A program made the translations under genes and the position numbers. The notes under the pieces were generated by a model. The model saw only the letters and a list, made by a program, of their open reading frames with translations, did no database searches and had not been told where the DNA came from. Below, piece by piece: positions 6,277-59,205 of a stretch of DNA of 64,000 nt (position 1 is its first letter; every line of letters begins with the position of its first letter). Origin of the DNA: Lachnospiraceae bacterium (GTDB lineage Bacteria > Bacillota > Clostridia > Lachnospirales > Lachnospiraceae); assembly GCA_017469405.1 (NCBI GenBank), contig JAFUGL010000016.1, positions 1 to 64,000 on the forward strand, in the 5' to 3' direction.

Positions 6277-7125
6277 ATGGAAAAGCTAAAATGTAATGTC
6301 TGCTTTCGCGGCTGCATGCTTTCCGATGGTGAAACGGGTGCGTGCTTTGCGAGAGAATGTAAGGATAATAATATAATTTCAAAAAGCTATGGATATATTA
6401 CATCGCTTGCTCTTGATCCGATAGAAAAGAAGCCATTGAACAGATTTTATCCGGGAAGTATGATTTTATCTGTTGGAAGTTATGGCTGTAATCTTAAGTG
6501 TCCTTTCTGTCAGAATGTCAGCATATCATTGGCAGACGGAAGATACGTACCTGATACGGAATACCTGCCACCGGAGGCACTTGCTGATATGGCAGCTGCT
6601 TTAAAGGACAGGGGAAATATAGGCGTTGCATTTACATACAATGAACCTCTTGTCGGATATGAATATGTACGAGATACCGCAAAGCTTATCCATGAGGCCG
6701 GTATGAAAAATGTTGTTGTAACAAATGGCTCTGTAAATACATGGGTATTGGATGAACTTGAGCCATATATAGATGCATTCAATATTGACCTGAAGTGCTT
6801 TAACGAGGCTTATTATAAAGATGTACTAAAGGGTGATTTTGAAACAACTAAAAAATTCATCGAGCGTGCGCTTTCATTTGCACACGTGGAACTTACAACA
6901 CTTATCATACCTGATGAAAATGATACGGAAGAAGAGATGAGAGAACTATCCTTGTGGGTGCATGAGCTTGAATTAAAACATAATAAAAATATCCCGCTTC
7001 ACATCTCGAGATTTTTCCCACGCAGTAAATACATAGACAGACAACCTACAAGAGTTCAAAGCATAATTAAACTTGCCGAGGTTGCAAGAGAGAATCTAAC
7101 ATACGTATATGAAGGTAATATATAA
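6277..7125 (+). CDS. amrS: AmmeMemoRadiSam system radical SAM enzyme
   Basis: A 282-residue cytoplasmic protein. The radical SAM cluster motif is CNLKCPFC near residue 71, preceded by a Cys-rich N-terminus (CNVCFRGC, with another Cys pair in GACFAREC) typical of this activating-enzyme-like family. Later motifs are FTYNEPLVGYEY, VVTNGSVN and FNIDLKCF, and the C-terminus contains HISRFFPRSKY. Together with the next gene it forms the three-domain AmmeMemoRadiSam system (radical SAM, Memo, AMMECR1). These domains co-occur across bacteria and archaea, and their substrate I cannot state. The next gene starts 131 bp later and seems to have its own promoter. Confidence 0.9.
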   Translation: MEKLKCNVCFRGCMLSDGETGACFARECKDNNIISKSYGYITSLALDPIEKKPLNRFYPGSMILSVGSYGCNLKCPFCQNVSISLADGRYVPDTEYLPPEALADMAAALKDRGNIGVAFTYNEPLVGYEYVRDTAKLIHEAGMKNVVVTNGSVNTWVLDELEPYIDAFNIDLKCFNEAYYKDVLKGDFETTKKFIERALSFAHVELTTLIIPDENDTEEEMRELSLWVHELELKHNKNIPLHISRFFPRSKYIDRQPTRVQSIIKLAEVARENLTYVYEGNI

Positions 7126-7183
7126 AGTGTGGCAATATCCATGCCACAAAATTGGCAACTATCAAGCCTTTCATATACTAAAT

Positions 7184-7213
7184 TTGCCTGTTGCCACGGC
7201 TTCGTGTTATAAT
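7184..7213 (+). promoter_or_regulatory. promoter of the Memo-AMMECR1 fusion gene
   Basis: TTGCCT (7184-7189), an 18-bp spacer and TATAAT (7208-7213), 44 bp upstream of the ATG. Just after amrS there is a short hairpin (7128-7134 with 7142-7148, TGTGGCA/TGCCACA) without a T-run. Confidence 0.5.
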
Positions 7214-7256
7214 TTTAAAAGGGTTATATCGGATTAATAAAAGAGGAGGATTTAGT

Positions 7257-8729
7257 ATGGGGATAATAGCAGGATTTATGGTGCCGCATCCACCGATGAT
7301 TGTTCCGGCGATTGGTCGCGGCAGCGAAGAAACAATTAAAGAAACTACAAAAAGCTATGAGCAGGTTGCTGATATGATAGCCGAGCTAAAACCTGACACC
7401 ATAGTTATATCGTCTCCGCATAGTGTAATGTATAGGGATTATTTCCATATATCTCCGGGAAGCCATGCAAGTGGTTCCTTTGCAAAGTTTGATGCGCCGG
7501 AGGAACGTTATGATGTAGAGTATGATATGGAATTTGTTGATTTGTTATGTGAGCTTGCTGAACAAAATGATATACCGGCAGGGACATTGGGAGAAAAAAG
7601 TGCTGCGCTTGATCATGGAACCATGGTGCCGTTATATTTTATAATGAAAAAATATACAGACTTTAAGCTTGTGCGTATCGGACTTTCGGGTGAGCCTATG
7701 CAGGAGCACTATGGACTTGGTATGGCTATAAAGGAAACGTCCGAAAAGCTGGGAAGAAGAGTCTGTTATATCGCAAGCGGAGACCTTTCCCATAAGCTTC
7801 AGGAGTATGGACCATATGGCTTTGCAAAGGAAGGACCTGTATATGATGAGCGCATTATGGACGTGATGGGACGTGCAGCCTTTGATGAATTATTAGATTT
7901 TGAGGAAGGCTTTTTGGATAAGGCTGCAGAGTGTGGACATCGCTCTTTCGTGATGATGGCAGGTGCATTTGACTGTACTGACGTAGAGGTAACAAAGCTT
8001 TCTCATCAGGATGTGACAGGTGTTGGTTACGGCATATGCACTTATATAAATAAGAGCGTTGACGAAGAAAGAAACATGCTTGATAAGTGGAATATAAGGC
8101 ATAGGGATAAGATAATAAATATGAGAAAAAATGAGGATGCCTATGTAAAGCTTGCAAGATTAACAATTGAAAATTATATAATAACACATGAAAAAATATC
8201 TTGGAAAAATGTAAAAAGGCGCGTGCTTTCAACAGGAAGCGGAATGACCGAACAGCTTACTGCAGAGCAGCTTCAGGAAAGGGATGCAAAGTCTGATGCG
8301 CATGAAGAACTTAGCAACAAAAGGGCGGGAGCTTTTGTGTCCATTCATAAAAACGGAGCTTTAAGAGGCTGCATCGGAACCATCGGACCGACAAAGCTGT
8401 ATCTTGCAGAGGAAATAATTGAAAATGCAATAAGTGCATCAACCCGTGACCCGCGCTTTTTGCCTATTACAAAGGATGAGCTCTTTGAGCTTGAGATAAA
8501 TGTGGATGTTCTTGGGGAGATAGAACCGATAGAATCGGAAGATGAGCTGGATGTCGTACGATATGGAGTAATTGTAAATAAGGGCAACAAACAGGGGCTT
8601 TTATTGCCTAATCTTGATGGCGTTGACACTATAGAGGAACAGCTTTCTATCGCAAAAAGAAAGGCAGGACTTGCGCCGGATGAAGAAGGATGTAAATTAT
8701 ATAGATTTGAGGTTGTGAGACATACATGA
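7257..8729 (+). CDS. AmmeMemoRadiSam fusion protein: Memo (B) plus AMMECR1 (A) domains
   Basis: The ATG at 7257 is chosen because AGAGGAGGA lies 7 bases upstream, giving 490 residues. Residues 1 to about 270 are a Memo domain, related to class III extradiol dioxygenases, with PHPPMIVPAIG, SPHSVMYRDYFHIS, DHGTMVPLYFI and SGDLSHK, which supply the conserved His and Asp residues. Residues from about 310 to the end are an AMMECR1 domain with GAFVSIHKNGALRGCIGTIG and STRDPRFLPI. In some genomes the two domains are separate genes. No signal or membrane segment is present. The radical SAM partner lies directly upstream. The gene converges on an Rpn nuclease gene with a shared terminator. Confidence 0.92.
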   Translation: MGIIAGFMVPHPPMIVPAIGRGSEETIKETTKSYEQVADMIAELKPDTIVISSPHSVMYRDYFHISPGSHASGSFAKFDAPEERYDVEYDMEFVDLLCELAEQNDIPAGTLGEKSAALDHGTMVPLYFIMKKYTDFKLVRIGLSGEPMQEHYGLGMAIKETSEKLGRRVCYIASGDLSHKLQEYGPYGFAKEGPVYDERIMDVMGRAAFDELLDFEEGFLDKAAECGHRSFVMMAGAFDCTDVEVTKLSHQDVTGVGYGICTYINKSVDEERNMLDKWNIRHRDKIINMRKNEDAYVKLARLTIENYIITHEKISWKNVKRRVLSTGSGMTEQLTAEQLQERDAKSDAHEELSNKRAGAFVSIHKNGALRGCIGTIGPTKLYLAEEIIENAISASTRDPRFLPITKDELFELEINVDVLGEIEPIESEDELDVVRYGVIVNKGNKQGLLLPNLDGVDTIEEQLSIAKRKAGLAPDEEGCKLYRFEVVRHT

Positions 8730-49602: not shown

Positions 49603-50142
49603 ATGGGAATAGTTATATGTATTGTTGCTATTGTTGCAGTTATATTCTTATGGTGGATAGGAACTTATAACGGCATAAAAAAACTTGATATCAAAGTCAA
49701 GGAAGGCCTATCAGGCATAGATGTAGCACTTACAAAGAGATACGATGTGCTTACAAAGATGCTTGATGTTGTAAAGGGATATCAGAAGCATGAAAAGGAG
49801 ATTCTTTCTGAAGTAATAAGACTTAGAAGTGGTATGACCATGCAGGAAAGAAATACTGCCAATCAGCAGATGGATACAGCTTTCGGAAGAATTAACATGC
49901 TTGCAGAGAGTTATCCGGAGCTTAAGTCTTCCAATAACTTTATTCAGCTTCAAAATGCGATACTTGATACAGAAGAACATCTTCAGGCAGCGAGACGTTT
50001 GTATAATGCCAATGTAACAGCGTTTAACGAAAAGATTGTTACATTTCCAAACAGCATAGTTGCAGGTTCTATGGGAGCAGTTGCTAAAGAATTCTTCGAA
50101 GCAGAAGCTGTAAAAAGACAGGATGTAAAGATGCAATTTTAA
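49603..50142 (+). CDS. LemA-family membrane protein
   Basis: A 179-residue protein with an AGGAGGGG ribosome site. One N-terminal membrane segment (residues 2-19) is followed by a coiled helical bundle. The LemA signature reads YNGIKKLDIKVKEGLSGIDV, then ALTKRYDVLTKML and YNANVTAFNEKIVTFPNSIV. LemA proteins are outward or inward helical anchors with an unclear role in envelope function. It stands alone between the exporter operon and a long palindrome. Confidence 0.93.
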   Translation: MGIVICIVAIVAVIFLWWIGTYNGIKKLDIKVKEGLSGIDVALTKRYDVLTKMLDVVKGYQKHEKEILSEVIRLRSGMTMQERNTANQQMDTAFGRINMLAESYPELKSSNNFIQLQNAILDTEEHLQAARRLYNANVTAFNEKIVTFPNSIVAGSMGAVAKEFFEAEAVKRQDVKMQF

Positions 50143-50356: not shown

Positions 50357-51892
50357 ATGGCGCTAAAGCACGTAATGATAAATGATATAATTGCAGAAAA
50401 CAATGCGCGAATGTTAAATTTGAAAAAATACTATCCTTTTTTTGTGTTAAATGAAACCACATTTTCACAGTATAAGGATGGCAGATTTGCATTTCTTGAT
50501 ATGGGTTATATCACCCTTGCCACGCTTAGGTTTTTTATAAATGAAAATAACTTTCACGAAAGAGATATAAGCTTTGAAGAATTCGAGGCTTTTATGATAG
50601 AGCTTTTGGAAAGGGACTTTGAACTGGAAACAGGAATAGAGGAAGAAAAGGAACTTGTCGGATACATATTTGATAAGCTTAAAAATGACGGTCGTGCTTT
50701 TGAGTTTAAGTTCTATGATCCTGAGGAAAGAAAGACAAGGATTGCGAGAGTTAAACTTATAGACAGCAGGATAGAAAACGGACAGGTGCTTTATACCATA
50801 ACCCCTGAAGGTATTGAGTTTTATCTTGATACCAAGGAGGTAAAGGAGGAAAGCAAGATAAATATCTCCCAGCTTCTTTTGGAGAAGATGATAACATCCA
50901 ATAATTTCAAGGGTGGTATCGATGTCGTTAAAAGAATCAATGCTGAAGTTACGAGGATTAAAGAGAAAAAGGAGCAGGTTTTAAAGCTGCTCAGTATAGA
51001 TATATTTGAAGGCGAAAAAGCATATGAGGAATATATGGATACAATCGCCAAGTGGTTTAATGATGAACAGAAGCTTTTTGTTAAAAATAAAGCGCTGGTA
51101 GATAAGGCTGTGGAAAAGGCTTCCTACGGAATGAACTCTGATGGTGAAAAAAGTTCAAACACCAGGGCGTTTGAGGAGATCAGCCGCCTTGAGACAGAGT
51201 TAAAGCAGACCATATATAATCACAGTCAGCTTATCGCCGAAACTGTTGAGCTTTCACAGCTTGCGGATAATATTATAAGCCGCGCAAAGCTTAGAAAATT
51301 AAGACCGGTTTTTGATTTTGGAAAGAGCTTTTCAAACATAATGGAAAAGGATGAACCGTCACTTATGTCCTTTATACTTATGCCACTTTTTGCCCCAAGA
51401 CTTGATAAGACGTTTTCGGCAAAATCCATAGATAATATCCTTACACTTAAGGCCGAGGATGGAGGAAAAGGCGAGAAGGTTGAGAAAAAAGAACTTGATC
51501 TTGACTTTATGTATGAGGATGAAATCCTGGATAAGAAAATAGGAATGAATTTTGCAAAGCTTTTTTATGAACTTTTAGATCAGCTTGATAAGTGGAGCAA
51601 AATTACTCTTAAGGAATTTAACGGTATACTTGAAATTAAGTTCAATAAAGAGATATATGCAAACAGAGATTTATATGCATTTTTGGTGCATCTTGCAGGT
51701 AAGAACTCTTACAGTATGAGCAGGATGTGTGAGAAGCAGGAGACTCTGCTTGAGGAAATGGTTGTTACATATATGTCGGATGAGGATAAAGAGAAGTTTA
51801 AACATATAGATTTCAATATTACCTTTGGTGAAGAGTTTGAGATAGAGGGATACGGAAGTACACTCACGGATATGACTTTTGAGAAGGTATAA
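50357..51892 (+). CDS. jetA: Wadjet JetA-family protein (DUF5716), MukF-like kleisin
   Basis: A 511-residue protein with an AAGGTGA ribosome site. The start (LKHVMINDIIAENNARMLNL) leads into a winged-helix-like N-terminal domain (FAFLDMGYITLATLRFF, FMIELLERDFELE). A central helical region with IEFYLDTKEVKEESKINISQ and several coiled coils follows, and a C-terminal winged-helix-like end reads ITFGEEFEIEGYGSTLTD. I recognise the family as DUF5716/JetA, the kleisin (MukF-like) subunit of the Wadjet SMC defence complex. It binds the JetC heads and is followed by JetB and JetC in the classical order. Confidence 0.82.
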   Translation: MALKHVMINDIIAENNARMLNLKKYYPFFVLNETTFSQYKDGRFAFLDMGYITLATLRFFINENNFHERDISFEEFEAFMIELLERDFELETGIEEEKELVGYIFDKLKNDGRAFEFKFYDPEERKTRIARVKLIDSRIENGQVLYTITPEGIEFYLDTKEVKEESKINISQLLLEKMITSNNFKGGIDVVKRINAEVTRIKEKKEQVLKLLSIDIFEGEKAYEEYMDTIAKWFNDEQKLFVKNKALVDKAVEKASYGMNSDGEKSSNTRAFEEISRLETELKQTIYNHSQLIAETVELSQLADNIISRAKLRKLRPVFDFGKSFSNIMEKDEPSLMSFILMPLFAPRLDKTFSAKSIDNILTLKAEDGGKGEKVEKKELDLDFMYEDEILDKKIGMNFAKLFYELLDQLDKWSKITLKEFNGILEIKFNKEIYANRDLYAFLVHLAGKNSYSMSRMCEKQETLLEEMVVTYMSDEDKEKFKHIDFNITFGEEFEIEGYGSTLTDMTFEKV

Positions 51893-51923
51893 GATTAGAA
51901 ACTGATGAAAGGTCGGAGAAACT

Positions 51924-52637
51924 ATGGAAGACAGAAGTCTTGATAAGGCACTTGATATATATGCGACACTGATTATAGGTAAAGAGGTGTCGAGAAAAGA
52001 CCCGGATACAAGGGAGCTTTACGAGGAGTTTTATTCTAATTCCGCAGTTTATGATATAACTGTAAGACTTATGAAAAAACTTAATCTAAGCATATATGAA
52101 TATAATGATGCGATTTATCTTACTGCCGGTGAGGGTAACAAGATATTTGGTTATACCAATGATGATATGAAGCGATTACTTGGCCTTAGGGTAAATAAGG
52201 AACTATATGTAGTTTATTTTATTATGTACAATGCGCTTCTTGCATTTTATCAGGATTCGGCATCATATCAGGTTAAAGAGTTTATCAAAGCTGAAGACAT
52301 ACTGGAAAGTGTAAATGATTATATGCTTAAATTTACTTCTGATTTATCCATTTATTCCATGGATGAGATGGAGGAGGAAAGCTTCAAATCCATAGCACTG
52401 TTATGGGACGAGCTTCCTACCGTTACTTCAGAAGATAAGGAAAGAAACAGAGCGTCACGTGCATCACGCATGGGCTACATCAAGCTTACCTTTAACTTTT
52501 TGATTGAGCAGAAGCTTTTTGTTGCGGTTTCGGACAGATACTATCCGACAGACAGATTTAAGGCGATTGTAGAAAATTATTTTGAGGAATATAAGGGCAG
52601 GATATACGAGATACTCGGAGGTAGAGAGGATGCCTAG
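51924..52637 (+). CDS. jetB: Wadjet JetB-family protein (DUF6063), MukE-like
   Basis: A 237-residue protein with a GGAGAAA site, 31 bp after jetA. It is helical with winged-helix traits: LDIYATLIIGKEVSRKDPDT, YDITVRLMKKLNLSIYEYND, AIYLTAGEGNKIFGYTNDDM, LRVNKELYVVYFIMYNALLA and YIKLTFNFLIEQKLFVAVSD. This pattern corresponds to DUF6063, the MukE-like KITE subunit of JetABC complexes. The stop codon lies 8 bases inside jetC, so translation of the two is coupled. Confidence 0.82.
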   Translation: MEDRSLDKALDIYATLIIGKEVSRKDPDTRELYEEFYSNSAVYDITVRLMKKLNLSIYEYNDAIYLTAGEGNKIFGYTNDDMKRLLGLRVNKELYVVYFIMYNALLAFYQDSASYQVKEFIKAEDILESVNDYMLKFTSDLSIYSMDEMEEESFKSIALLWDELPTVTSEDKERNRASRASRMGYIKLTFNFLIEQKLFVAVSDRYYPTDRFKAIVENYFEEYKGRIYEILGGREDA

Positions 52638-55600
52638 TATAAACAGGATAAGAGTAAATAATGTAAAATATAATTTCGGCTCACAGGTCTATGATGATTT
52701 TACTATGAGAATGTATGGAAAAAATACTATCTATGACCTTGCCAACGGTGGTGGTAAGAGTGTACTTATGCTTTTGCTTATGCAAAATATGCTGCCTAAT
52801 TCTACCCTTGATGAAAAGCAGCCGATAGAGAAGCTTTTCAGGGCAGGAAACAATAACTCTGTCATTCATTCTCTCATAGAGTGGAAGCTTGACAATCCTG
52901 AGGATAATGAAGGCTACCGTTATATGACGACCGGCTTTTGCGCCAGAAAGGCCAAGGAGTCCGAGCAGGAAAATGAAGGTGCAAAGGATGTGGCATCCGT
53001 AGAGTATTTTAATTATTGCATACTTTACAGGGAGTTCAACAAAAATGATATAATCAATCTTCCGCTTATCAAGGATGGCGAGAGAATTTCCTATAGTGGA
53101 CTGCGTTCATATCTTAAAGATTTAGAGCATAATGATATGAGCCTTAAGGTTATGGTGTTTGACAGAAAGGGCGAGTATCAAAGGTACATAAGTACTCTTG
53201 GACTTCACGACAGTCAGTGGGAGATTATAAGAGGTATCAATAAGACCGAGGGACATGTAAGAACATATTTTGAGACTAATTACAGGACAACCAGAAAGGT
53301 TGTTGAGGATCTTCTTATAGAGGAGATTATAGAAAAAGCATTTATGGTAAAAACCAATCTTGAGGATTCCGGAAATGAATCCATGGCGCGTATGCTCATG
53401 GATATCAAGGATCAGCTTACCGTACTTGCCAAGAAGAAAAAGGATATATCAAATTATGATTATCAGATAGAGCTTATAAAGGTGCTAACAGATAAAGTGG
53501 ATTCCTTTATGGAACTTTACGAGGAACAGGATAATTATAAGAGAATGCTTGCCGGTATATATAAGGCGGGTGAAGAGTTTGCGGGAAATGATGAAGAGTA
53601 CATGCAGGCTCTTGAAAAAAAGAAAAATGAAAAGCTTGATGAAAAGCACAAGCAGCGTGAACATATAGAGTGCCTTAAGGTTTCAAGGGATAAGAGAAAG
53701 CTTGAGGAGATAAAAGAAGAGGCGAGGGATTTAAAGAATAAGGCCAAAGCTTACAAGGATAAATCCCAGGCGCTTTTTGAGGACTATCATTTTAAGGAAA
53801 GCACTAACGATTACCTTTTATATCTTGAGGATAAAAAGAAATATGATGAGTGTGACCTTGTAATAAAGACCATAAGAAGCGGAGCCGCTTACGATGATGA
53901 GCTTCTTTATACCTACATTTATAATATCAAAAAATGTATCGATGCAAAAAAGGAAGAGCTTGATAAAAAATGTAAGGAGCTTTTATCTACTATCAGTGAA
54001 GCAAAGCTTGAGAAGGAATATCATGAAAAGCTTTTGAGTGAAGCGAGGATAAGTCTTGCCGTTGCCGAAAGCGAGGGTAAAAAAGCTAAAGAAGAGATAG
54101 AATCCTTAAGTGAACAGCTTTCACAGGTTAAGCTCAGTATGAACAATATAAGCTTTGCGGCATATGATGAACAGCTTCTTGATGTTGAGGAAGAGATTAA
54201 TAAGGTTAAGCAGAGACTGTCGGATATCATTGGTGAGGATGAAAAGCTTACAACAGGTTTAAGAGAAGAAAAGGGAAGACTTTTCGAATATGAACAAAGA
54301 AAACTTTCCCTTGAAAAGATAATTGACGAAATTAAAAACCGCGAGCAGGAGTATGAGGATACTTTAAAGAAGTTTAATAATATTAAATCAGTCTATGGCA
54401 TAGAGGATGAAAAACGAATAGTTGATGTGATCTCTGAAAGGATAACCAATGAAATTTTAGAGCTTGCGGATCTAAGACATGATTTAAAGAGAAGCGATAA
54501 AAAGATAAGAAGATTAAATGAGGGCAGACTTATCGCTCCGTCAAAGGCCGTCAAAAAGGTTCTTGATTATATCGAGACAAGACATGGCATGACAGCTATG
54601 TTTGGTATGGATTATCTGTCAGCGGTAAATGTAGAAAAAAAGGAAAAACTGCTTTTGGAAAATCCGCTTTTGCCATATGGAATTCTTGTGGATGATTTTG
54701 ATACTTTAAAGGAAGATCCTAATCTATCAGGCATAGATACTGACGGTGAGGCAGTACTTATATATGACATGAAAAATGATGAGGAAAAGGCATTTTATAT
54801 CGGAGAAAATATGCTTGCAGTAAGTGCCGATAATGACTTTTTCTTAAGCCCTGAAACAAAGGACAAGCTTATAGCAAAGGAAGAGGAAAATGCCAGGGAG
54901 ATAAGACTCGCTTGTGAGATGAAGGAAAAGCTTCTGGATGCCTATCGTGAGGACAGAGCCTTTGTTATAAGGGTATTAAACAGCAGCATTTTGGAGGATG
55001 AAGAAAAACTTAAGGAAAGTGAAAAAGAACTTAAGGATGTAACCTCATTTGTAAAAAATTGCGAGGACAATATTAAAAGCTATGAAAATGAGATAAAGAA
55101 GCTTAAAAAAGAAGAGGAATCAAAGAGAGACTACTATGAGGAGCTTTTATCTGACAGCAACAGATTATATACTGTTAAAAAACTTAGTGAGATAATAGAT
55201 AACGAAGAAAAAGCTCTTGAAAAAAGTAATGCGACTTCTTTAAGACTTCGTGATGAGATTAACAAACTTTCTGCTGAAGAAGGAAGTAAAAATGTTGATG
55301 TAGCTTTGCTTGAATCAAAGCTTGCGGCATTGGAAAAGAGTATCGAGGATTTAAATTTGGAATGGAATAACAATTACAGAAGCTATTACAATCCGGATAA
55401 TACATATGAAGATTTATCACTTCCTTATGATGAGATAGTTGCCAAGTTCACTTCCATGAAGCTTTCCTTTGATGATGAGAAAAAGGCTATAGAGGATAAG
55501 CAGCTGCTTATGGATACATTAAAGGTATCTATGGACAGAGTTTTAAACAGCATAAAGAAGCGTGGCACAAAGCTTTCCGATATAGAAAAGCTAAAGGATG

Positions 55601-57033
55601 AGGATGCATTATATGTTATAGATGAGGAAACGCTTGGTACGATAAGAAAGAGTATAGATGAACTTGAGTATCAGATGAAGGGCTATGAAGAAGCCTATAA
55701 AAATAAGATTTCTGAGGCGGACAGACTTTCAGGTAGTATAGATTACGCGATTGATAATATAAAAACTGCCTTTGGACATTTTGAAGAAAGCGATGCTTCG
55801 CTTGCCCAGATAAGTCAGAGCCTTGCCGAAGGAGAAAAGCTTCTTGCAAGACTTGATAAAGAGGCAAAGGAAAGTGAGGCAGAGTATAAGCGCTATGCAA
55901 AGGAACAGGGCTATATGCTCGAACTTTACAAGGATGTAAAACGTATCATAACCACCAACGACATAAGTCTTGAGGATGCGCTTTCCGTAACTGAAGAAAA
56001 GGAAAAATTAAGAGAATTATTTGAGGACACTCTTATAAAATACGATAGGAGCAATAAGAAGCTTGATAAGGCAAAAAATGAGCTTCTTAGATTTAAAGGA
56101 AATACATCTTCTGCGTTAGAGCAGATGAGTATGTTCGAGCTTGCCAACACTATAAGAGAGGATGTAACCATACCATCTTCATATGCGCTTGCCAAGGAGC
56201 TTAGTACCAGCCTTAACCAGACAGTGGAATATATAAGACTTGAAAGAGACAGGGTTGAAAAAAGTTTATCTGATATGGAAACCATAAAGGAAAACTTTGA
56301 AGAACAATGTCTGCAAAGATGTCTTGATGTAAGAACCGAACTTGATAAGCTTCCAAAGCTGTCAAGGATTATATCCGAGGGCGAGGCTATACAGGTGGTT
56401 GACCTTAGCATACCGTATGTAAAGGATGAGTTCCTAAAACATAAAATGTCGGATTATATAGATAAAGTAGTGGCAGCTGCAGACGGATATGAAAATGATA
56501 AGGACAGAATGAAATATATCCGCGGAAGTCTTACTCTTAAGAAATTATTTGGTGTAATAGTAACGGATATGAATGCCATAAAGCTTACACTTTATAAGCG
56601 TGAGAGAATCAAGGAGCAAAGCCGTTATCTTAAGTATGAAGAGGCTGTTGGAAGTACGGGACAGTCACAGGGTATATATATACAGTTTTTGGTTTCTATA
56701 ATTAACTATATATCGGGCATGTATCAGACCAAGAGTGATGAGATTATGACCAAGACAATATTTATAGATAATCCTTTTGGTGCTGCAAAGGATGTATATA
56801 TATGGGAACCTATATTTGAACTTTTAAAGGCTAACAATGTTCAGCTTATCGTACCGGCAAGAGGGGTTACTCCTGCCATCACAGGTAAGTTTGATGTGAA
56901 TTATATACTTGGTCAGCAGATGTCTAAGGGTAAACAGCTTACTGTAGTTACAAACTACACAAGTAAGGTTGACCAGGAGGAAATGGAATATCAGGATTTG
57001 GAGTACGAACAGGTTAGTTTTGATTTTATCTAA
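52630..57033 (+). CDS. jetC: Wadjet JetC-like SMC/MukB-type ATPase
   Basis: The ATG at 52630 follows GGAGGT by 7 bases and overlaps jetB by 8, giving 1467 residues. The N-terminal head has Walker A LANGGGKS (Lys43) and a Q-loop-like segment. Long coiled coils fill residues of about 270-620 and 780-1230. A hinge-like globular part lies near 620-770 (GMTAMFGMDYLSAVNVEKKE, GILVDDFDTLKEDP). The C-terminal head has the ABC signature GSTGQSQGIYIQF and the Walker B FIDNPFGAAKD, where the catalytic Glu is an Asn. It should form the motor that extrudes or compacts DNA, as in Wadjet complexes that destroy plasmids with JetD. No JetD is seen. Confidence 0.85.
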   Translation: MPSINRIRVNNVKYNFGSQVYDDFTMRMYGKNTIYDLANGGGKSVLMLLLMQNMLPNSTLDEKQPIEKLFRAGNNNSVIHSLIEWKLDNPEDNEGYRYMTTGFCARKAKESEQENEGAKDVASVEYFNYCILYREFNKNDIINLPLIKDGERISYSGLRSYLKDLEHNDMSLKVMVFDRKGEYQRYISTLGLHDSQWEIIRGINKTEGHVRTYFETNYRTTRKVVEDLLIEEIIEKAFMVKTNLEDSGNESMARMLMDIKDQLTVLAKKKKDISNYDYQIELIKVLTDKVDSFMELYEEQDNYKRMLAGIYKAGEEFAGNDEEYMQALEKKKNEKLDEKHKQREHIECLKVSRDKRKLEEIKEEARDLKNKAKAYKDKSQALFEDYHFKESTNDYLLYLEDKKKYDECDLVIKTIRSGAAYDDELLYTYIYNIKKCIDAKKEELDKKCKELLSTISEAKLEKEYHEKLLSEARISLAVAESEGKKAKEEIESLSEQLSQVKLSMNNISFAAYDEQLLDVEEEINKVKQRLSDIIGEDEKLTTGLREEKGRLFEYEQRKLSLEKIIDEIKNREQEYEDTLKKFNNIKSVYGIEDEKRIVDVISERITNEILELADLRHDLKRSDKKIRRLNEGRLIAPSKAVKKVLDYIETRHGMTAMFGMDYLSAVNVEKKEKLLLENPLLPYGILVDDFDTLKEDPNLSGIDTDGEAVLIYDMKNDEEKAFYIGENMLAVSADNDFFLSPETKDKLIAKEEENAREIRLACEMKEKLLDAYREDRAFVIRVLNSSILEDEEKLKESEKELKDVTSFVKNCEDNIKSYENEIKKLKKEEESKRDYYEELLSDSNRLYTVKKLSEIIDNEEKALEKSNATSLRLRDEINKLSAEEGSKNVDVALLESKLAALEKSIEDLNLEWNNNYRSYYNPDNTYEDLSLPYDEIVAKFTSMKLSFDDEKKAIEDKQLLMDTLKVSMDRVLNSIKKRGTKLSDIEKLKDEDALYVIDEETLGTIRKSIDELEYQMKGYEEAYKNKISEADRLSGSIDYAIDNIKTAFGHFEESDASLAQISQSLAEGEKLLARLDKEAKESEAEYKRYAKEQGYMLELYKDVKRIITTNDISLEDALSVTEEKEKLRELFEDTLIKYDRSNKKLDKAKNELLRFKGNTSSALEQMSMFELANTIREDVTIPSSYALAKELSTSLNQTVEYIRLERDRVEKSLSDMETIKENFEEQCLQRCLDVRTELDKLPKLSRIISEGEAIQVVDLSIPYVKDEFLKHKMSDYIDKVVAAADGYENDKDRMKYIRGSLTLKKLFGVIVTDMNAIKLTLYKRERIKEQSRYLKYEEAVGSTGQSQGIYIQFLVSIINYISGMYQTKSDEIMTKTIFIDNPFGAAKDVYIWEPIFELLKANNVQLIVPARGVTPAITGKFDVNYILGQQMSKGKQLTVVTNYTSKVDQEEMEYQDLEYEQVSFDFI

Positions 57034-57055
57034 AAAATATACATAGGAGAAAAAT

Positions 57056-57934
57056 ATGCACTATAAAGAGGTAAAGGCGGTTTTATCACCGCAAAGCGGT
57101 ATGAACATATATCGCGGCTGTCTGCATGGCTGTATATACTGTGACTCAAGAAGTAAATGCTATCGCATGACTCATGATTTTGAGGATGTGGAAATAAAAG
57201 CAAGAGCAGATGACATACTTGAGCATACGCTGAAAAGAAAACGAAATAAAACAATGATTGTTACCGGTTCCATGAGCGACCCGTACATTCCTATTGAAGA
57301 AGAACTTCAGCTTACAAGAAGATGTCTTAATCAGATAGAACGTTTTGATTTTGGAGTTGTTATACAGACCAAGTCAAACCTGATTATGAGAGATATAGAT
57401 ATACTTGAAAGGATAAATAAGAAGACCAAATGTGTGGTTGCCATGACACTTACAACCTATGATGATGAGCTGTGTAAAAAGCTTGAACCGGGAGTGTGTG
57501 TAACCAGTGAGCGAGTAAAGGTTCTGATGGAAATGAAAAAAAGAGGCATACCTACCTTGGTTTGGATTACACCTCTTCTTCCGTTTATCAATGATACAGA
57601 GGAGAATCTAAAAGGTTTGCTTGATTATTGTGTAGAAGCAGGTGTATATGGAATAATCTATGCAAATGGTATGGGCATGACATTAAGAGAGGGCAATCGT
57701 GAGTATTTTTATGAACAGCTGGACAAGCATTTTCCGGGTATAAAAGATAAATACATAGGAACCTTCGGAAACTCTTATGAGGTTCCAAGTCAAAACAGTA
57801 TGGCTTTAACAAAGCTGTTAAAGAGTACCTGTGAGGAGCATGGCATAGTCTATGATCAGGAGGAGCTTTTCAGATATATGAGAGAGTATAAAAATAAGAC
57901 TCTCGGTGTTCAGATGTCGATTTTCGATTATTAA
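57056..57934 (+). CDS. radical SAM protein of the spore photoproduct lyase-like family
   Basis: A 292-residue protein starting 22 bp after jetC with an AGGAGA site, so it is probably in the same operon. The cluster motif is RGCLHGCIYCDSRS (C-x3-C-x2-C). Further landmarks are MIVTGSMSDPYIPIEEEL, FGVVIQTKSN, VVAMTLTTYDDELCKKLEPG and PTLVWITPLLPFINDTEEN. Related proteins are commonly annotated as SPL family but have no proven photolyase function and occur often in clostridia. The position after jetABC, where a JetD nuclease is often found, is the odd point. The pairing may be accidental. Confidence 0.85.
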   Translation: MHYKEVKAVLSPQSGMNIYRGCLHGCIYCDSRSKCYRMTHDFEDVEIKARADDILEHTLKRKRNKTMIVTGSMSDPYIPIEEELQLTRRCLNQIERFDFGVVIQTKSNLIMRDIDILERINKKTKCVVAMTLTTYDDELCKKLEPGVCVTSERVKVLMEMKKRGIPTLVWITPLLPFINDTEENLKGLLDYCVEAGVYGIIYANGMGMTLREGNREYFYEQLDKHFPGIKDKYIGTFGNSYEVPSQNSMALTKLLKSTCEEHGIVYDQEELFRYMREYKNKTLGVQMSIFDY

Positions 57935-58035: not shown

Positions 58036-59205
58036 ATGGATTACAACGAGTTAAGTTTAAAAATGCACGAAGAAAATCATGGAAAGATAGAGGTTATCTC
58101 TAAAGTTGAGGTAAAGACTAAGGATGACTTAAGTACTGCATATACTCCGGGAGTTGCAGAGCCTTGTCGTAAAATAAGAGATAATAAGATGGATGTATAT
58201 AAATATACCAATAAGTCAAATCTTGTAGCAGTAGTTTCAGACGGAACTGCAGTACTCGGACTTGGTGATATAGGACCTGAAGCTGCCATACCTGTTATGG
58301 AGGGAAAGTCAATATTGTTTAAAACCTTTGGAAATGTAGATGCATTTCCTATCTGCCTGGATACTAAGGATGTAGATGAGATAGTTGAAACAGTAAAAAG
58401 ACTTGCACCTGTATTTGGTGGTATAAATCTTGAGGATATAGCAGCTCCAAGATGTTTTGAGATAGAAAGAAGACTTAAGGAAGAACTTGATATACCTGTC
58501 TTCCATGATGACCAGCACGGAACTGCAGTTGTAGTATGCGCAGGTCTTATCAATGCTTTGAAAATAGTAGGGAAAAAGATGGAAGATATAAGTGCTGTTA
58601 TAAGCGGTGCAGGTGCAGCAGGCATCTCAATCTGTAAGCTTTTGATGAGATTCGGTATCGGAAATGTAGTGCTTGTAAACAGTAAGGGTGCCCTCTGTCC
58701 GGGCGAACCGCATATGAATCCTGCACAGGCCGAGATGGCTGAGATAACCAATAAAAACAGAGAAAGAGGAAGTCTTGCTGATGTTATGAAGGGCAAGGAT
58801 GTATTTATAGGAGTATCGGCACCTGGTATCGTAACACAGGAGATGGTAGCATCAATGGCTGATAATGCAATGGTATTTGCTATGGCAAATCCTACACCTG
58901 AGATAATGCCTGATGAGGCAAAGAAGGGCGGCGCAAGAATAATTGCAACCGGTCGTTCGGATTTCCCTAACCAGATAAATAATGTACTTGTATTTCCGGG
59001 TATTTTTAGAGGCGCACTTGATGCCCGCGCAACAGATATAACAGAGGATATGAAGGTAGCAGCCGCAAAGGCAATCGCCTCCATAGTAAAAGATGATGAA
59101 TTAAATGAAGAATACATCATACCTGACGCTTTCAACAAAGAAGTAGCTAAAGCTGTTGCACAGGCTGTAGCTGACTGCGCAAGAGAATCAGGAGTTGTAA
59201 AGTAA
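58036..59205 (+). CDS. malic enzyme (malate dehydrogenase, decarboxylating)
   Basis: A 389-residue protein of the short bacterial malic enzyme type, with an AAGGAG site. Motifs are STAYTPGVAEPCRKI, NLVAVVSDGTAVLGLGDIGP, FPICLDTKDVDEI, DDQHGTAVVVCAGLINAL, the Rossmann segment SGAGAAGISICKLLMRFG and FAMANPTPEIMPDEA. It converts malate to pyruvate and CO2 with NAD(P)+. The length is standard and no fused phosphotransacetylase domain is present. A large antisense frame over it is a codon-bias shadow. Confidence 0.95.
   Translation: MDYNELSLKMHEENHGKIEVISKVEVKTKDDLSTAYTPGVAEPCRKIRDNKMDVYKYTNKSNLVAVVSDGTAVLGLGDIGPEAAIPVMEGKSILFKTFGNVDAFPICLDTKDVDEIVETVKRLAPVFGGINLEDIAAPRCFEIERRLKEELDIPVFHDDQHGTAVVVCAGLINALKIVGKKMEDISAVISGAGAAGISICKLLMRFGIGNVVLVNSKGALCPGEPHMNPAQAEMAEITNKNRERGSLADVMKGKDVFIGVSAPGIVTQEMVASMADNAMVFAMANPTPEIMPDEAKKGGARIIATGRSDFPNQINNVLVFPGIFRGALDARATDITEDMKVAAAKAIASIVKDDELNEEYIIPDAFNKEVAKAVAQAVADCARESGVVK

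Follow-up and report, generated by a model that had tools for sequence, protein, structure and literature searches.

Wadjet type III is reportedly a four-gene system, JetABCD, said to have been described by Doron et al. in 2018. The locus considered here lies at positions 50357 to 57934 of the window, by which we mean the whole 64,000-nucleotide stretch analyzed (contig JAFUGL010000016.1 of the Lachnospiraceae bacterium assembly GCA_017469405.1), and it encodes JetA, JetB, and JetC proteins followed by a radical S-adenosylmethionine (SAM) protein resembling spore photoproduct lyase (SPL). All three Jet proteins match the type III models of PADLOC over nearly their full length, but the operon has no jetD, while the canonical gene order is jetD-jetA-jetB-jetC. 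A review states that MksBEF of Pseudomonas aeruginosa, which acts on the chromosome, likely arose from JetABCD by loss of JetD (PMC10586767), and the nuclease-containing MksBEFG of Corynebacterium glutamicum is described as acting on plasmids and not in chromosome organization (PMC7083940). By gene content, the window operon resembles MksBEF in being a three-gene set of structural maintenance of chromosomes (SMC), kleisin, and KITE proteins without a nuclease. We assign a probability of roughly one half to the reading that this JetABC is a JetD-less, chromosomal, Mks-like condensin that would extrude DNA loops, and that the neighboring radical SAM protein probably assists it in docking or regulation. 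That the complex would be a resident of the cell rather than a cutter of plasmids is, taken alone, probable.

The four genes are intact open reading frames (ORFs) on the + strand. The first, jetA (50357..51892), encodes an MksF-like kleisin of 511 amino acids that matches PADLOC model JetA3 (PDLC00560; 690 bits, residues 1 to 510) and has no match in a Pfam profile search. It is followed by jetB (51924..52637; 237 amino acids), encoding an MksE-like KITE protein (JetB3, PDLC00571, 336 bits; Pfam DUF6063), and jetC (52630..57033; 1467 amino acids from the ATG), encoding an MksB-like SMC protein (JetC3, PDLC00581, 1747 bits). Given the ATG at 52630 as the jetC start, jetB and jetC overlap by 8 bp (52630 to 52637); the open frame of jetC extends upstream to a TTG at 52582. 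JetC carries a Walker A motif, NGGGKS (residues 39 to 44; 52744..52761), and an ABC signature, STGQ (residues 1342 to 1345; 56653..56664), both invariant in the JetC alignment, in which FIDNPFG (residues 1378 to 1384; 56761..56781) marks the Walker B region. The radical SAM gene (57056..57934; 292 amino acids) begins 22 bp after the jetC stop, with TAGGAG, its likely ribosome-binding site, in between (57044..57049). Between the LemA gene (49603-50142) and the malic enzyme gene (58036-59205), which bound the interval scanned, neither Pfam nor PADLOC detected a JetD among the listed + strand ORFs of at least 80 amino acids. The original prediction, made from the DNA letters alone, had described the contiguous and overlapping jet genes, the closely following SPL-like gene, and the missing JetD in this interval, and the coordinates and matches bear it out on all of these points.

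The absence of JetD from the locus extends far beyond this genome. Among 200 genomes of the family, and after exclusion of three weak matches (G112, G113, and G002; E > 1e-4), a JetC close to that of the window (E <= 3e-161) occurs in 31, the next match reaching only E = 3.5e-21. The 16 further, weak JetC loci of the family are canonical type III: by hand count, 14 have a JetD_C match within 4 kb of JetC, the exceptions being G176, with JetD_C 12 kb away, and G136, without a JetD_C match. In all 15 canonical loci read at length, one of them clipped by a contig end, jetD lies directly upstream of jetA, and two of these JetD proteins were confirmed as JetD3 by PADLOC (333 and 267 bits). In contrast, none of the 31 family genomes carries JetD_C on the contig that encodes the window-type JetC, and no JetD was found at any of the 80 nearest named-genome loci (the best 80 of 248 relatives), 57 of which show more than 1.3 kb upstream of jetA. 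Two genomes, G151 and G174, encode a JetD-less JetC together with a separate canonical JetC accompanied by JetD. In an unrooted tree of JetD-less and canonical type III JetC proteins, all 104 JetD-less sequences fall apart from the 15 canonical ones (support, 0.996), and the same split was recovered with an ultrafast bootstrap (UFBoot) value of 100 on a 61-sequence subset. By these comparisons, the absence of JetD is a property of a monophyletic JetABC clade and not an oddity of one genome. We propose that this Lachnospiraceae clade either lost JetD once or originated without it and then became resident.

The Walker A motif and the STGQS signature are retained in 104/104 JetD-less JetC proteins, and a DNPF Walker B is common to all 104 of these and to the 15 canonical ones. 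An acidic D-E pair usually follows the Walker B strand; in type III JetC, including that of the window, the strand is followed by DNPF instead. A sequence search of the PDB with JetC returned mostly coiled coils, and a comparison by eye of JetB N termini for an altered JetD-contacting part gave no clear result.

Within its genus, the JetD-less JetC is nearly universal. It is present in 36/37 species, the genome of the missing species being 64% complete, and in all 18 high-quality genomes of the genus, as well as in all five species of a second genus; canonical type III loci, in contrast, are patchy. At this level of similarity, a sample of 391 genomes of the class yielded JetC in just 3, each of them from Lachnospiraceae. 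The gene is thus core-like within genera and patchy across the family (31/200), a distribution that points to loss or gain at the genus level or above. ScpA is encoded by 30 of the 31 family genomes with the JetD-less JetC, so that the complex would be an addition to SMC-ScpAB; this, together with the radical SAM gene in one branch, sets the clade apart from MksBEF, as would its apparent nature as a separate, type III-derived Lachnospiraceae lineage, seen in the tree of type III JetC proteins. By the labels used, which come from profiles built in this analysis, the neighbors of the operon are metabolic or replication genes and not other defense genes, and the JetD-less operon lies downstream of dnaX-ebfC-recR in 11/32 genomes (10/31 of the family sample plus G370). 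Most of these genomes are metagenome assemblies, and loci were chosen as best hits rather than at random. Of the three interpretations offered at the outset, a condensin-only, Mks-like complex, a JetD encoded elsewhere, and the radical SAM protein as a new effector or DNA-modifying partner, the first is the best supported by this fixed JetD-less clade.

The radical SAM gene follows jetC in one lineage of this clade. It adjoins jetC in 20/20 loci of the genus examined and in 47 of the 80 named-genome loci, 5 more of which end at jetC. In the JetC tree the linked loci fall into one lineage, where 51 of 52 readable operons are linked with a median gap of 23 bp; the unlinked exception, L074, groups within the lineage at a support value of just 0.04, and its true position may be elsewhere, and locus L255 ends at jetC and is not readable in this respect. 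The malic enzyme gene is also conserved near the linked operons. JetC and radical SAM distances correlate at 0.92 across 46 loci, with a partial correlation of 0.86 given malic enzyme, which is consistent with a functional tie between the two proteins. Taking all observations together, we consider such a tie to JetABC somewhat more probable than its absence.

What the protein does beside JetABC is informed by a loss of cysteines. The window protein qualifies as a radical SAM protein by its Pfam Radical_SAM domain (51 bits; cut-off, 29.5) and an intact CxxxCxxC motif, CLHGCIYC (residues 22 to 29; 57119..57142). Its NCBIfam matches are to the PA0069 family (150 bits; cut-off, 360) and the Rv2578c family (135 bits; cut-off, 430), both far below the cut-offs, and at 20.7 bits it is no equivalog of the spore photoproduct lyase model TIGR04070 (cut-off, 400). 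CxxxCxxC is absent from 24 of the 51 linked copies (distinct loci, L011 and L078 being counted as one) and kept in all 28 unlinked copies; the first cysteine is gone from 24/24 of the cysteine-less proteins, and the other two are gone to a varying extent. In two of these proteins Pfam Radical_SAM still scores 19.3 bits, under the cut-off, and 31.3 bits, over it. One cysteine-less locus, L230, belongs to a culturable strain, Eubacterium ruminantium ATCC 17233. In the radical SAM tree, which is likewise unrooted, the linked copies form one clade to the exclusion of the 28 unlinked copies. The cysteine-less copies also form one clade, with a UFBoot value of 100, and have diverged faster than the intact linked ones: their mean tree distance to the unlinked copies is 3.19, versus 1.24. 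Their genes are open, and the ratio of nonsynonymous to synonymous substitution rates (dN/dS) is 0.042 to 0.115 in 8 of 10 pairs, values that are approximate at the high synonymous divergence of the pairs (0.9 to 2.6), with the other 2 pairs saturated; judged by these ratios, the genes are under purifying selection. AlphaFold2 models have a mean predicted local distance difference test score of 88.6 for the window protein and 92.4 for the cysteine-less L236, the last dozen residues being weakest in both, and spore photoproduct lyase heads the table of PDB fold matches for both (TM, 0.6); a PDB sequence search with the radical SAM protein gave no match. Since linked copies are kept without the cluster cysteines, a noncatalytic function would be expected in that branch, and next to JetABC the protein probably acts in docking or regulation rather than as a catalyst. 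In the window branch, with its cysteines intact, radical SAM catalysis may persist.

A possible docking site is suggested by the C-terminal tails. According to an excerpt of its source, the published motif for binding the sliding clamp is Q-aliphatic-x-[L/M]-[F/L] or a hexamer form (PMC11139829). We scored the fit to it in the last 20 residues and took expected values from shuffled tails. The motif is fitted by 20/28 unlinked radical SAM tails (0.58 expected), 11/26 linked intact tails (0.20 expected), and 5/24 cysteine-less tails (0.16 expected), and by 9 of the 15 canonical type III JetC tails (e.g., L103, L173, and L176). Labeled proteins were preferred as controls, since an unlabeled-ORF control included spurious six-frame ORFs; among them, JetA, JetB, malic enzyme, MoxR, DUF58, TGase, dnaX, recR, and jetD3 gave no fits, and a tetratricopeptide repeat (TPR) protein gave 1/53. 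Q-[LMI]-[STDNEG] occurs in the last 16 residues of 25/28 unlinked, 26/26 linked intact, and 24/24 cysteine-less copies. In the window, the C-terminal tail of the radical SAM protein carries QMSIF (residues 286 to 290; 57911..57925), with Q286 invariant in two alignments, and that of JetC carries the clamp-like QVSFDF (residues 1461 to 1466; 57010..57027), with Q1461 invariant. As predicted from these motifs, the radical SAM family as a whole is thus likely to have a clamp-binding tail and the window protein may have one, and the case for such a tail in the window JetC is weak. Unlinked relatives (L043 to L071 without L044 of genome G180, which is linked), whose tails of the Q-L/M-S/T-L-F type resemble those of beta-clamp binding proteins, belong to a family of SPL-like proteins with a possible role at replication forks, and the clamp-like tails of armed, canonical type III JetC proteins would suggest a link to the replisome there too. 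For JetD-less JetC, a looser, post hoc pattern had given 73/98 fits; it was set aside.

In the scenario that we favor, a type III-related JetABC complex loses its nuclease and is kept vertically as a resident complex beside SMC-ScpAB. By analogy with MksBEF, it would extrude loops on the host chromosome, driven by ATP and without cutting plasmids. The radical SAM protein would be in physical contact with JetABC and, perhaps together with JetC, would be recruited to the replisome by a tail with affinity for DnaN, the sliding clamp, a step that we regard as tentative and less likely than not. In the sister lineage this role would have retained the fold and the tail while the cysteines were lost; in the window branch the chemistry may continue as well. 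The most far-reaching version of the scenario, in which a disarmed plasmid-destroying SMC complex becomes a resident chromosome motor and a captured radical SAM enzyme becomes a pseudoenzyme adaptor tethering the extruder to the replication clamp, is speculative and, as a whole, rather unlikely.

Several observations weigh against the reading of a chromosomal condensin with a radical SAM partner. In the family sample, the radical SAM gene adjoins jetC in no more than 5 of the 31 JetD-less operons; of the remaining genomes, 8 carry the gene elsewhere and the rest have no strong match, so that the complex works without the radical SAM protein. The expectation that the gene would commonly follow jetC in relatives thus held within one lineage and was partly contradicted across the family. 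The adjacency is one inherited arrangement, and the loci that show it do not count as separate events. The correlations were computed from pairwise distances, which lack independence, and malic enzyme evolves slowly for a control. JetC diverges faster than malic enzyme, as defense genes also do. As for clamp docking, JetD-less JetC tails fit the published motif in only 2/104 cases (0/53 and 2/51), so that the idea rested on the radical SAM family and canonical JetC and not on the window JetC, and both window tails narrowly fail the published definition, QMSIF by an I where L or M is specified; binding here is a prediction.

Part of this weight falls to the view that the complex is a JetD-less condensin next to which the radical SAM gene is a mere inherited neighbor without shared function. 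The single origin of the adjacency, the conserved malic enzyme, and the many operons without the gene all agree with it, as does the finding that the radical SAM protein is common in the family (109/200 genomes with any match, mostly far from jetC); its co-occurrence with the JetD-less JetC is not raised across the family (13/31 versus 67/169 at E <= 1e-50, hand counts). However, the 28 unlinked loci have no fixed neighbor, the commonest being shared by only 5, and linked loci such as L232, L239, and L243 retain jetABC and the radical SAM gene without malic enzyme or the other downstream order. Furthermore, cysteines were lost only in linked copies, and the linked copies evolve fast in step with JetABC. 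We therefore regard a mere neighbor as a serious but less probable explanation. A new defense system, with the radical SAM protein standing in for JetD to act as effector or to modify DNA, is improbable: the tight coupling, the resemblance in fold to SPL, itself a DNA-acting enzyme, and the intact cysteines of the window protein speak for it, but nearly half of the linked copies lack the cluster motif, one such genome (G160) has no other radical SAM match than a stop-containing fragment of 44 residues, and the operon occurs in nearly all species of the genus among metabolic and replication genes. The partnership raised by the original prediction thus holds up as a linkage in one lineage, and its catalytic version is weakened.

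A plasmid-cutting Wadjet system with its nuclease supplied in trans would account for the operon if a JetD encoded elsewhere served JetABC, and the genome (138 contigs, 91.5% complete), in which profile searches detected one JetC, one ScpA, and one JetD, does encode that JetD at full length, away from the operon on contig C17. This protein, found by its JetD_C match, is however of the JetD1 type in PADLOC (318 bits, against 22.5 for the best JetD3 model), and a profile search found no DUF3322 in the genome; the proposed genome-wide search for DUF3322 and DUF2220 homologs thus returned a JetD, though a type I-like one rather than one of the type of this operon. In the genus, JetD_C was found in only 4/37 species, in one of which (G223) JetD lies beside a second, canonical JetC. 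Among the 200 family genomes, JetD occurs anywhere in 10/31 genomes with the JetD-less JetC and 55/169 without (hand tallies), which shows no association. On these grounds JetD acting in trans was set aside as very unlikely. Less credible still is a decaying Wadjet remnant. JetD is missing and the JetC sequence drifts fast, as such a remnant would have it, but the frames are open, the ATPase motifs are complete throughout the clade, JetC dN/dS is 0.047 to 0.215 in unsaturated pairs, and JetC persists in almost every species of the genus.

If the reading of a resident chromosomal condensin is true, the clade would be a second, independent case of a defense SMC complex turned resident condensin besides MksBEF, whose own origin is inferred in a review (PMC10586767). 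Because the family also contains armed relatives, and G151 and G174 carry both forms, the effect of nuclease loss is directly testable. A radical SAM protein that persists next to an SMC operon after losing its cluster would represent a new type of partner for SMC complexes, and its clamp-like tail would be a possible tie of a loop extruder to replication. Caution is also advised in annotation, as the type III JetABC models used for defense systems match a probable housekeeping complex in Lachnospiraceae. A literature search that excluded most subscription papers and bioRxiv found no paper on the JetD-less type III clade or its radical SAM partner.

A TPR-AAA-like gene lies downstream of jetC in 19 of the 31 family-sample loci, which represent one lineage. 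Its product joins three parts in a single chain (example, L084:158-2416, - strand), namely a TPR domain, a linker of acidic low-complexity sequence, and an AAA-like domain at the C terminus, and profile searches gave it no specific family name. We had considered it as a lineage-specific fourth subunit or nuclease replacement and rejected it, as the gene is family-wide (192/200 genomes) and has no PADLOC hit. At 7 TPR-AAA loci from genomes without the JetD-less JetC, no dnaX, ebfC, or recR was found nearby.

The orphan JetD1-like gene of contig C17 (L002:9633-10961, - strand) has no jetA, jetB, or jetC among the ORFs listed around it. It adjoins a Schlafen/AlbA-type gene and an ATPase gene broken into two ORFs (L002:7701-8309 and 6984-7640), both matching PDC-S01. 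Among named genomes, the top relatives of the window locus come from uncultured Lachnospiraceae of rumen and gut; some relatives' records (L198 and others) are labeled Bacteroides or Clostridium, but their genes are arranged as in this Lachnospiraceae genus, and they are probably mislabeled.

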